Source of the DNA: Alphaproteobacteria bacterium
GTDB taxonomy: Bacteria; Pseudomonadota; Alphaproteobacteria; JANQMY01
Direction of reading: 5' to 3'
DNA length: 64,000 nucleotides
Assembly: GCA_028289425.1 (NCBI GenBank)
Contig: JANQPL010000011.1
Span: 124,001 to 188,000 of the forward strand
Of the stretch, positions 31,213 to 35,250 are shown in pieces. How positions within the stretch are numbered: the first letter of the stretch is position 1; each line of letters opens with the position of its first letter. The notes under the pieces are model-generated. The model saw nothing but the letters and a program-made list of their open reading frames with translations. It had not been told where the DNA came from and did not search any database. A program made the translations under genes and the position numbers.

Positions 31213-31725
31213 TTAGGATTTCTTGACCATTTCCGTTTCGTCGGAAAAACGCGGCAAGGGATCTGCGCAAGGTGCTTCGTACACAGAATAGAGACCGGCA
31301 TAGGTCACTTTAGGATTGCCTTGGGCGTAAGTATCGAAAAAGTCCGACCCCATCATGAATTCATTCATCACCCTGCGTTCGTAGTTTTTGAGACGCCGGC
31401 TTATAAATCCGGGCGCCATCCAACGGAAGGGTGGCGAATTGGCGTAGGGCCCCAAGAGCCGAAGGGCAATCCACTCTGTACCGCTGGTGTCCGTATCGGC
31501 TGCAATGACGTCGGCAACGAAGCGCGCCATGTCCTCTTCAGTAATGTCAAGACCGGGTAAATGAGTTCTGACAATTCGCTCCACCAGACGGGCCGGCGAG
31601 TAAAAAAGAAAAGATCCGCCGATGCCTAGGGCGCCCAATCCGGCCACCCCAGCTCCGCCGATTAGCACATTCCTGCGGTTAAAGCCGGCGCCTTCGCCGG
31701 TCGGTTTTGTTGGCCGCTTGTTCAT
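31213..31725 (-). CDS. Small Tat-like subunit of GMC dehydrogenase, copy 1
   Basis: A 170-residue protein with an N-terminal twin-arginine-like segment (FNRRNVLIGGAGVAGLGALGIGG) and a helical body (ARLVERIVRTHLPGLDITEEDMARFV). It begins with ATGA overlapping the stop of the GMC gene (31722-31725), so the two are translationally coupled. The layout, FAD subunit plus small Tat-bearing subunit, is that of gluconate and glucose dehydrogenase complexes, where the small subunit carries the large one across the membrane. The second copy is at 33299-33802; NEFMMGSDFFDTYAQGNPKVTY is almost the same in both. Confidence 0.75.
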   Translation of the reverse strand: MNKRPTKPTGEGAGFNRRNVLIGGAGVAGLGALGIGGSFLFYSPARLVERIVRTHLPGLDITEEDMARFVADVIAADTDTSGTEWIALRLLGPYANSPPFRWMAPGFISRRLKNYERRVMNEFMMGSDFFDTYAQGNPKVTYAGLYSVYEAPCADPLPRFSDETEMVKKS

Positions 31726-33179
31726 GCCGGCGCTCCTATCTTGTCGGCCGCCTTCATGGCCACCGCACAGATCGTCAATGTAGGATTTGATTGGGACCCC
31801 GCCGGAAAACTGCCGCTGCCCACCACGACCAGATTGCGCACTTGGTGGTGGATTTGATTGGCATCCAGAATGCTTGTTGCCGGATCTGTCCCCATCATCG
31901 TCGTGCCGTAAATGTGCGGCCCGCCAATCGTATCGGGCGACGGTAGCCACCTTAGTCCCTCAACAGGCAAGGGTGACAAGATCTCTTCGGCGAATTGCAA
32001 TGCGCGGTTGACCGCTTTTGCCGTATACGGACTAAGCTCATCATATAGGACTTCCGGCAGATCATCGTCGGGATGAGCCAGCCTCACATGACTGCGGTCT
32101 TGTGGGAGATCTTCAAGCTTGAGTGTAAACGGCACGACCTGGCGCCATTTGCCATGTTCTGCGCGCAACGCGCCTCTGTTCCAGGTTTCAAGCAACACGG
32201 ACGGATGCTCTCGCCGGAAATCGCCATCATACTTTGCGTAATTCATGCCGCAGATGATGCTGCTGCCTTGGAAATTGTCGACACCATCCAGTAAAGCTTC
32301 GCCGTATTCGCTATAGCTTCCGTGAAGCCGCCGGCCGAGCAGGGGATGATCGAGACCTGATCTTTGCATAATGACCGGATTGAACAAGGCGTTGGCGCCA
32401 AGCACCACAAGGTCGGCCGATACTTCATACTCCTGCCCATTTCGGCGGAACATAACGCCACGCGCTTGTCCACCCTGCACGTCGATGGCGCGCGCTTCCG
32501 CTGTAAGCAGGATCTCCACACGGGCGTCCTCATAGGGCTCCATGAAACTGTTCAAGATCGAAAACTTCGAATCGATGGGACACAGATGACACACGCCGTT
32601 CGAGCAGCATTTGGGGCGCGTCGCCGTGTCGCGGGAGGGCCGCGCGGTCGCCGCTGCAAAATGATGTTCCGGGTAGGCCTCTTTCAGTAGTCGGTCGGCT
32701 AGAGGCAGCGTATGCGGCGGTTGCGGGAATGGCCTGGACCGGGGCCACAACATGCGTTCCCGAGGCCCCGAGAGCTGCATCACCTCTTCCGCCTCGCAGT
32801 AATAGGGTTCGATATCATCGTAGTCGATCGGCCAGTCGAGCCCGACGCCGTATTTGGTTTTGAGTTTGAAATCACTAGGGTGCAGGCGGACCGCATTCCC
32901 CCACCAACAATTCGACCCACCGCCAAAGCCGATGGTGAACTTCCATCGAAGGTTTTGCTTCGGCCCTTTGTCCACCCAAGTCGTGCTTTCATGAATCTCC
33001 GACGGGTGACCCATCTCGATTTGGTCGGCATGGGTGTGCCATTTGCCGCGCTCCAAAACCAACACCCGCGCATTGGGCGGCGCATGCTTCAAGTACCGAT
33101 AGAGAAAAAAAGTGGACGCAAATCCGCTGCCGATGATGGCCGCGTCATAGGAACGAGCCGCCTTTTCAACCACGCGCAT
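31722..33179 (-). CDS. GMC oxidoreductase with a cysteine cluster, copy 1
   Basis: A 485-residue flavoprotein. The FAD loop is AAIIGSGFASTFFLYRYLK, GFGGGSNCWWGNAVRLHP is the GMC signature region, and HIYGTTMMGTD plus SQSNPTLTICAVAMKAADKI give the C-terminal active site. KCCSNGVCHLCPIDSKF (C191, C192, C197, C200 from the used start) resembles the three-iron cluster motif of bacterial FAD glucose dehydrogenases. The ATG at 33179 is used because copy 2 starts at the same point. No signal peptide, so transport by the Tat subunit is likely. Substrate unknown; no cytochrome subunit is near. Confidence 0.85.
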   Translation of the reverse strand: MRVVEKAARSYDAAIIGSGFASTFFLYRYLKHAPPNARVLVLERGKWHTHADQIEMGHPSEIHESTTWVDKGPKQNLRWKFTIGFGGGSNCWWGNAVRLHPSDFKLKTKYGVGLDWPIDYDDIEPYYCEAEEVMQLSGPRERMLWPRSRPFPQPPHTLPLADRLLKEAYPEHHFAAATARPSRDTATRPKCCSNGVCHLCPIDSKFSILNSFMEPYEDARVEILLTAEARAIDVQGGQARGVMFRRNGQEYEVSADLVVLGANALFNPVIMQRSGLDHPLLGRRLHGSYSEYGEALLDGVDNFQGSSIICGMNYAKYDGDFRREHPSVLLETWNRGALRAEHGKWRQVVPFTLKLEDLPQDRSHVRLAHPDDDLPEVLYDELSPYTAKAVNRALQFAEEILSPLPVEGLRWLPSPDTIGGPHIYGTTMMGTDPATSILDANQIHHQVRNLVVVGSGSFPAGSQSNPTLTICAVAMKAADKIGAPA

Positions 33180-33298
33180 AAACGCCACCCACAGATGCGA
33201 TCCAGAACGATAGGAAGGTAGGGGAAGACGTTTAACGTAAGGTTGTGACCCGGCCTCGGGTGGTTTGGCGCGGCGATTTGCCGGGCAAGTTTGTCCGC

Positions 33299-33802
33299 CT
33301 AAGCCGTATCGGGCTCTTGCGGAAAGCGCGGCAGGGGGCTGGCGCAGGGCGCTTCATAAACGGTATAGAGCCCCGTATAGGTCACCTTCGGATTGCCCAT
33401 CGCGTAGGTGTCGAAGAAGTCCGACCCCATCATGAATTCGCTCATCACGCGCCGTTCGAAATTTTCAACGCCTCGGCTGACAAAGGCGGGCAACATCCAT
33501 CGGAACGGCGGCAGATTGACAAACGGCGCCAACAGTCTGAGGCCCAGCCGCTCCTTCCGGCTCGTATGAATATCCGCCGCCAAAAAGTCAGAGACAAACT
33601 GGCGCATGTCGTTGCCGTCAATGTCGAGGCCTGGCAGATGGGCCCTCACAATATGTTCGACCAGACGGGCAGGCGAGTTGTAAAGGAATGAGCCACCAAG
33701 TCCCGCAGCCCCCAATCCGGCGAGACCGGCGCCGCCAATGAGGATGTTGCGGCGGTCAAATTCGGTGCCGGTTTGCAAAGGCCTTGACTTCGGATCGCTC
33801 AC
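33299..33802 (-). CDS. Small Tat-like subunit of GMC dehydrogenase, copy 2
   Basis: A 167-residue paralogue of the protein at 31213-31725. The Tat-like segment is EFDRRNILIGGAGLAGLGAAGLGG, the body ARLVEHIVRAHLPGLDIDGNDMRQFV, and the end EFMMGSDFFDTYAMGNPKVTY. The start is a GTG at 33802 that overlaps the stop of GMC copy 2 as GTGA, the same coupling as copy 1 with its ATGA. The end PLPRFPQEPDTA differs from copy 1. It precedes GMC copy 1 by 119 bp, so all four genes may form one transcript. Confidence 0.74.
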   Translation of the reverse strand: MSDPKSRPLQTGTEFDRRNILIGGAGLAGLGAAGLGGSFLYNSPARLVEHIVRAHLPGLDIDGNDMRQFVSDFLAADIHTSRKERLGLRLLAPFVNLPPFRWMLPAFVSRGVENFERRVMSEFMMGSDFFDTYAMGNPKVTYTGLYTVYEAPCASPLPRFPQEPDTA

Positions 33803-35250
33803 ACGGACGCCCCCAGCTTGTCGGCCGCTTTCATGGCGACTGCGCAGATCGTCAGTGTGGGGTTGGATTGACAACCAGATGGAAATCCCCCGCTGCCCAC
33901 AACCACAAGATTGCGCACCTGGTGGTGAATTTGATCCGGGTCGAGAATGCTCGTGTCGGGATCCTTTCCCATGAGTGTTGTGCCGTGAATGTGCGAGCCG
34001 GCGCTTCCTTGGGGAAAACGGGTGATAGATTCCACAGGCAGGGGCGCTAGAATTTCAGCGATCAATTGTTCTGCCTGCTGCACACCTTTCAACGCATACG
34101 AACTATAAGCATTGTACCGTATCTCGGGTAAATCATCGTCCAAGTTCGCCAGCACGACGCGGTTTTGTTCCTGAGGTAGATCTTCAATCTTCATCAGGAA
34201 GGGCAATACCTGACGCCACTTGCCGAATTCCTTGCGTAACGGACCCGCATTCCAGGTCTCGAACAAAACAGATGGAAACTCGCTGCGAAATGCACCGTCA
34301 TATTTGGAATAGTTCATCCCGCAAACGATAGTACTTCCCTGAAAATGGTCGACGCCATCCAGGTAGGCCTCGCCGAATACCGCAAAATTGTCGTAGAGGT
34401 TGCGCCCCAACATAGGGTGATCGAGGCCCGACCGTTGCAAGATTGTCGGGTTGAAGATGGCGTTGGCCCCCAGCACCACCAAATCAGCCGATACGGATAG
34501 GTCCTTCCCGCCGCGGCGGTAGGCCACCCCCGTCGCCGTTCCCGCCTCCACATCGATCGCGCGCGCTTCCGCCGTGAGCAGCACCTCCACGCGCGGGTCC
34601 TCATACGGCGCCATGAAACTGTTGAGGATCGTGAATTTGGAGTCGATGGGACACAGATGGCACACGCCATTGGCACAGCATTTTGGCCGAGTGGTCGTAT
34701 CGCGGGAAGGGCGGGCCGTGGTGGCTGCGAAGTGGTGATCGGGATAGGCTTCTTTTAACAGGCGGTCAGGCAACGGTAAGGTGTGCGGCGGCAGCGGAAA
34801 TGGCGTTGACCGGTGCCACAACATGGGTTCCCGCGGACCCGACACTTGCATGACTTCTTCGGCGATGCCGTAATAGGATTCGATATCGTCGTAGTCGATT
34901 GGCCAATCCGTGCCCACGCCATAAGTCGACTTCAGTTTGAAATCGCTGGGGTGTTGGCGCACGGAATTGCCCCACCAGCAATTCGATCCGCCGCCGAAGC
35001 CAATCGTAAAATTCCAGGTTTTGTTCTTTTCGCGGCCCTTATCGATCCATGCATCGTTCGGGTGAATCTCGGAGGTGCGCCCCATTTCCACTTGGTCGGC
35101 ATGGGTGTGCAATTTGCCGCGCTCGAGCACCAGAAACCTCGCATTCGGTGCCGCGTGGTCTAGATAGCGGTGAAGAAAGAAAGTAGACCCAAAGCCACTG
35201 CCGATGAAAACCACATCGTACGAGCCGGCGGCTTCTTCAACCACACGCAT
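33799..35250 (-). CDS. GMC oxidoreductase with a cysteine cluster, copy 2
   Basis: A 483-residue paralogue of the copy 1 flavoprotein, alignable over its whole length. It has the same FAD loop (VVFIGSGFGSTFFLHRYLD), GFGGGSNCWWGNSVRQHP, KCCANGVCHLCPIDSKF and the GTTLMGKDPDTS end. The two copies are clearly diverged in the middle third (residues about 210-400), so they may have different substrates. GAGGG lies seven bases before the ATG. It is the first gene of the four-gene run on the minus strand. Electron acceptor unknown. Confidence 0.85.
   Translation of the reverse strand: MRVVEEAAGSYDVVFIGSGFGSTFFLHRYLDHAAPNARFLVLERGKLHTHADQVEMGRTSEIHPNDAWIDKGREKNKTWNFTIGFGGGSNCWWGNSVRQHPSDFKLKSTYGVGTDWPIDYDDIESYYGIAEEVMQVSGPREPMLWHRSTPFPLPPHTLPLPDRLLKEAYPDHHFAATTARPSRDTTTRPKCCANGVCHLCPIDSKFTILNSFMAPYEDPRVEVLLTAEARAIDVEAGTATGVAYRRGGKDLSVSADLVVLGANAIFNPTILQRSGLDHPMLGRNLYDNFAVFGEAYLDGVDHFQGSTIVCGMNYSKYDGAFRSEFPSVLFETWNAGPLRKEFGKWRQVLPFLMKIEDLPQEQNRVVLANLDDDLPEIRYNAYSSYALKGVQQAEQLIAEILAPLPVESITRFPQGSAGSHIHGTTLMGKDPDTSILDPDQIHHQVRNLVVVGSGGFPSGCQSNPTLTICAVAMKAADKLGASV

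Follow-up and report, generated by a model that had tools for sequence, protein, structure and literature searches.

A tandem duplication of a GMC flavoprotein and its small subunit from a clade with cysteine at the flavin-bonding position, a shortened cluster-type motif, and no three-haem subunit gene nearby

Introduction

The glucose dehydrogenase (GDH) and fructose dehydrogenase (FDH) complexes serve glucose sensors, because their FAD and 3Fe-4S cluster form a wire together with a three-haem subunit. The locus described here, located within a 64-kb stretch of DNA (the window), encodes two pairs of proteins resembling the catalytic and small subunits of these complexes, which raises the question of what kind of enzyme they represent, and to which acceptor its electrons might pass. 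A clade that keeps the first part of the wire, but has no haem subunit and an altered flavin-bonding residue, would reveal which of these pieces are needed.

Layout of the Tandem Locus

The tandem occupies positions 31213-35250 of the window, and consists of two pairs of a GMC flavoprotein and a small protein, all on the minus strand and in the same order. In the first pair, large1 (33799..35250) encodes a GMC flavoprotein of 483 aa with no signal peptide of its own, and its stop codon overlaps, in the sequence GTGA, the GTG start of small1 (33299..33802; 167 aa), which carries a Tat-like signal with the twin arginine at 33754-33749. In the second pair, large2 (31722..33188), also a GMC flavoprotein, has 488 aa from its listed GTG start, or 485 aa from a downstream methionine at 33179, which matches the start of large1 in the alignment, and is linked by an ATGA overlap to small2 (31213..31725; 170 aa), where the twin arginine of the Tat-like signal lies at 31677-31672. 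Identity between the two copies is 73% over 483 aa for the large proteins, and 68% over 160 aa for the small proteins. The coordinates of the reading frames bear out the tandem pairs, their order, and the two overlaps described in the first-pass annotation of this DNA, and the recurrence of the pair layout and its motifs in about 20 other loci indicates that the arrangement is not due to chance. The neighbouring genes encode a TonB receptor, an acyl-CoA dehydrogenase, a serine hydrolase, a glyoxalase, a cation efflux protein, and an FAD-linked oxidase.

Domains and Invariant Cysteines of the Large Subunit

Both large proteins match the GMC_oxred_N and GMC_oxred_C domains above the Pfam cut-offs, and the predicted catalytic residues, His420 and Asn463, which are present in all 20 family members, align with His476 and Asn519 of the GDH of Burkholderia cepacia (BcGDH; PMC6719666). 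With both domains and the catalytic His/Asn pair present, the deduced proteins are members of the GMC oxidoreductase superfamily. The likeness to the FAD glucose dehydrogenases proposed in the first-pass annotation is supported by the sequence and the predicted fold, both of which point to kinship with the catalytic subunits of the FAD glucose and fructose dehydrogenases. The best fold matches of the predicted large-subunit model are FDH and GDH (Z about 30-32, rmsd 3.3-3.6 over 453-462 residues), led by the FDH catalytic subunit (Z about 32), to which it is about 23% identical when the folds are aligned. The catalytic subunits of FDH and BcGDH are also the nearest proteins of solved structure by sequence. 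The large subunit thus shares the GMC catalytic fold and a Cys cluster motif with the alpha subunit of the BcGDH alpha-beta-gamma complex (PDB 6a2u, 8grj), as well as its catalytic His/Asn pair, although it is about 50 residues shorter, and shares the catalytic-subunit fold and the Cys motif with the FDH of Gluconobacter japonicus (PDB 7w2j, 8jej), from which it differs in the same ways as from BcGDH.

The only invariant Cys columns in the family (20/20) are those of Cys 91, 191, 192, 197, and 200. The last four of these belong to the motif KCC[A/S]NGVCHLCP, the core of which lies at 34651..34680 in large1 (CCANGVCHLC) and at 32580..32609 in large2 (CCSNGVCHLC), both on the minus strand. By analogy with BcGDH (PMC6719666), Cys191, 197, and 200 are the putative three-iron ligands and Cys192 a putative disulfide residue, with the same putative roles in large2. 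The spacing is CCx4Cx2C, in contrast with the CCx4Cx3C of the BcGDH/FDH type, in which the ligands follow C-x5-C-x3-C, and this comparison with the B. cepacia GDH and the Gluconobacter FDH confirms the original observation that one residue fewer separates the last two cysteines. The motif might bind no cluster at all, in which case the protein would be either an oxidase or a flavoprotein stabilised by disulfides, which would be consistent with the lack of any electron-transfer partner gene among those found here and with the presence of bacterial pyranose oxidases among the structural relatives. The motif nevertheless coincides in the alignment with the residues known to bind the 3Fe-4S cluster in GDH, all four of its Cys residues are invariant, and the nearest relatives are dehydrogenases, which rank ahead of the oxidases in both sequence and fold; this reading is considered quite improbable.

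The fifth invariant residue, Cys91, is found in the sequence GGGSNCWW of large1 (34978..34980, minus strand), with its equivalent in large2 placed by alignment at 32907..32909 on the same strand. It aligns with His105 of the WHW motif of BcGDH, which is judged to bond the C8M of the FAD (PMC6719666). No gaps interrupt the alignment across GG-x-[ST]-x-[H/C]-W, and a pairwise alignment with GDH by HMMER gives the same result. This suggests that a thioether to the FAD (8alpha-S-cysteinyl) might replace the 8alpha-histidyl bond, which would complement rather than compete with the assignment of the pair as a dehydrogenase. Cysteine is present at this ungapped position in 20 of 20 family members, where the 22 proteins of the GDH/FDH clade all have His, and 8alpha-S-cysteinyl FAD does exist in other flavoproteins, while not being widespread (PMC4148704). 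However, cysteine is shorter than histidine, and would require a shift of the backbone, and the other GMC enzymes in these genomes have Leu, Ile, Val, or Asn at this position, which makes a non-covalent FAD beside a conserved cysteine equally possible. In addition, the AlphaFold model of the large subunit has pLDDT < 50 at residues 81-96 and 189-199, that is, at both Cys sites, and is thus too unreliable there to sustain any argument based on the distances between cysteines. The structure prediction, suggested initially as a means of viewing the Cys motif, is therefore informative on the overall fold, which is FDH/GDH-like, and not on the motif itself. The thioether is thus proposed only tentatively, although if the cysteine does bond the flavin, this would be a type of linkage for which no report was found in GMC enzymes.

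A Clade Distinct from the GDH/FDH Type

In a tree of 51 GMC proteins, obtained by a quick search and with some long outgroup branches, the 20 family members fall on one side of a single branch (SH-aLRT 100), while 22 GDH/FDH-type proteins form another group (96). Every family member combines Cys at position 91 with CCx4Cx2C, and every member of the GDH/FDH clade combines His at that position with the longer gap (x3), with CR or CA replacing CC in some cases. The shorter gap is a marker of the whole clade in these alignments, yet it is not unique to it, as C-x5-C-x2-C is also the spacing of a GMC oxidoreductase from another genome (L074/L091, in G421). Unlike the family, this protein keeps the His, has no second Cys of the CC pair, falls outside the clade, and has a Tat-type small gene upstream. 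Its gene lies at about 1195-2781 on the minus strand of L091 (G421:C55:10300-16000), with the His at the FAD position.

The domain content, motifs, conservation, gene layout, and missing beta-subunit gene are all established by the sequence. No report of a Cys-for-His GMC enzyme, or of this clade, was found in the open-licence literature. The first-pass annotation was correct in its reading of the kinship, the Cys motif, and the missing cytochrome, but overlooked the exchange of His for Cys, the clade-wide nature of the short gap, and the fact that the small proteins belong to none of the recognised hitchhiker families.

The genome from which the window is derived contains no family members other than large1 and large2, together with remote GMC proteins. 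In the genus-mate (G001), the single large gene (62% identical to large1 and 58% to large2) and the single small gene are on separate contigs, which indicates that strict pairing is not universal. The orphan small gene of the genus-mate (L021, 1644-2183) is flanked by the glyoxalase and serine-hydrolase genes, in the position that corresponds by orthology to the window locus. Outside the genus, relatives with 41-49% identity were found in Novosphingobium, on plasmids of Sinorhizobium and Rhizobium, in Rhodobacter/Cereibacter, Hyphomonas, and Antarcticirhabdus, and in uncultured bacteria; no relatives were found in viral contigs. A class-wide draw of 387 genomes recovered, at an E of 1e-90 or better, the genus of the window alone, while a phylum-wide draw added five more members, and as both draws score few candidates per genome, these family counts are lower bounds. 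The distribution of the family looks patchy.

The Small Subunit

The small gene overlaps the end of the large gene, or starts within about 30 bases downstream of it, in 19 of the 20 members, with the exception of the genus-mate, whereas in BcGDH the small gene precedes the large gene. As in BcGDH, the small protein is Tat-like. The twin arginine and a single C-terminal cysteine (Cys153) are invariant in the 16 small proteins aligned, although the Tat signals score below the Pfam cut-off. Unlike the known small subunits, which belong to PF12318, the small proteins match no Pfam family, PF12318 included, and the gluconate 2-dehydrogenase type of small subunit (PF13618) found no match among them or in the window genome. 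Membership of PF12318 or PF13618 was suggested by a profile comparison, with 89.5% probability, but this match is due to the shared signal region, given that the probability falls to 2.5% once the signals are removed, which is close to the values of the decoys (shuffled, up to 1.4; reversed, 1.7). Foldseek returned nothing below E 3.5 for the model of the small protein, and only common helical arrangements (Z up to 4.4) were recovered among the families listed, a comparison that an unlisted family could escape. A remote homology with the known hitchhiker subunits is possible, and would lie beyond the reach of these methods.

In BcGDH, Cys152 of the gamma subunit bonds Cys213 of the alpha subunit, the second Cys of CC (PMC6719666), although the authors of that study point out that these cysteines are not shared by all the known complexes. 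The counterparts of both residues, Cys192 of the large subunit and Cys153 of the small subunit, are present and invariant in the aligned family members, and in the GDH/FDH clade the small-subunit cysteine is missing from each of the four members with a readable small gene and no Cys192 equivalent. The candidate disulfide partners of Cys192 are the invariant Cys153 of small1 (33344..33346, minus strand), the analogue of gamma Cys152 (PMC6719666), and that of small2 (31267..31269, minus strand).

The Electron Acceptor and a Possible Mechanism

A further difference from BcGDH is the lack of the three-haem beta subunit. The original claim that no cytochrome was in view held for the 64 kb of the window and the next 20 kb on each side, which contain no c-type-cytochrome-like reading frame. 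The search for a shared cytochrome elsewhere, which had been suggested at the same time, was run across the 99.75%-complete genome with the Pantoea beta subunit as the query, and found no three-haem beta homologue, which leaves room for a small general-purpose cytochrome encoded elsewhere. The sole matches in this genome lay in two PQQ-type alcohol dehydrogenases (L042 and L043, in G000:C3 and G000:C19), each with a haem c domain fused at its C-terminus, and these domains were rejected as partners. A three-haem cytochrome reading frame is found directly 3' of the large gene in 13 of 22 GDH/FDH-clade loci, and in no family locus, and the flanks of the family loci contain no convincing cytochrome gene. 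Two CXXCH reading frames with no Pfam match, one of 710 aa near the Novosphingobium plasmid copy and the other of 414 aa beyond the window, both look spurious.

The acceptor might also be a dedicated protein other than a cytochrome, such as a DCC-type thiol protein or a membrane protein of about 490 aa. Six of the relatives' loci (L028, L031, L033, L034, L039, and L040) have a DCC1-like gene (PF04134) close to the pair, and three of these also have the membrane protein, but several relatives have neither gene nearby, and a search of the window genome and the genus-mate, which had no positive control, did not recover the membrane protein. A dedicated acceptor of this kind appears unlikely. The membrane protein itself, which has no Pfam match, is encoded at 4053-5549 in L028, 13867-15354 in L039, and 15242-16729 in L040, and contains the motifs YFYGIFHKINTDFLDPxVSCAV and, at the C-terminus, KxCTH.

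The pair is probably best read as a hitchhiker-exported, periplasmic FAD/3Fe-4S dehydrogenase, which would donate its electrons to a shared carrier encoded elsewhere in the genome. The periplasmic location, hitchhiker export, disulfide, [3Fe-4S] cluster, and transfer from FAD to the cluster are all drawn from analogy with GDH/FDH. The folded large subunit would be carried out by the small subunit with its Tat-like signal, and the Cys192-Cys153 disulfide would lock the two subunits together. The substrate, probably a sugar or a sugar-like alcohol, would reduce the FAD, next to which Cys91, in place of the flavin-bonding His, would be either a thioether or an unbonded thiol. The electrons would then pass to the surface [3Fe-4S] cluster on Cys191, 197, and 200, and, in turn, to a small c-type cytochrome or the quinone pool, with no dedicated three-haem subunit. 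The more specific proposal that the Cys-for-His clade as a whole combines an FAD thioether with a [3Fe-4S] route to some partner that is not a dedicated multihaem cytochrome is rather doubtful.

Duplication and Divergence of the Two Copies

In the tree, large1 and large2 are sisters (SH-aLRT 99), which places the duplication after the split from the genus-mate, and suggests that it arose in the lineage of the window. The near-saturation of the synonymous sites indicates that the duplication is old, and, together with the low dN (0.19 overall), that both copies are under purifying selection. The divergence is uneven, as first perceived, although its peak lies not in the middle of the protein, but at residues ~281-440, in the latter half, ahead of the C-terminal catalytic motif. 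The dN is 0.31 at residues 281-420 and 0.11-0.16 elsewhere, and the identity is 45-55% at residues 361-440. The faster change in this region is compatible with the original suggestion of two substrates, but divergence is not proof, and the deduced enzymes may differ in substrate.

Genomic Context and Possible Substrate

Outside the genus, genes for surface polysaccharides are found within about 10 kb of the pair in 16 of 17 loci with a flank of at least 6 kb. These genes encode, for example, Wzx-type flippases, GT4 glycosyltransferases, sugar transferases, Poly_export and Wzz proteins, acyltransferases, and phosphoribosyltransferase-like proteins. This context points to an oxidation step in the assembly of surface polysaccharides, of which no description was found, and the substrate may be such a polysaccharide or its precursor, oxidised in the periplasm, which would be compatible with the dehydrogenase reading favoured here. 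While this is a plausible option, it falls short of being the expected one. The flippase, glycosyltransferase, sugar-transferase, or export genes recur across the relatives, but the 16 of 17 is a raw count that includes many close kin (four from one genus, and two from a single Novosphingobium species), and the copies of the window and the genus-mate are located outside such clusters, so the link with polysaccharides may not apply there. The same polysaccharide queries found no match in the window, its 20-kb flanks (L022 and L023), or loci L025 and L026.

These queries did match one other site in the window genome, L024, where a remote GMC gene is located (G000:C5:375148-376686). This gene encodes a protein of 558 aa with the sequence GGTSNLWAG and no Cys motif, and its neighbours include Wzz, Poly_export, and sugar-transferase-like genes. 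The genus-mate also has a relative of this remote GMC protein.
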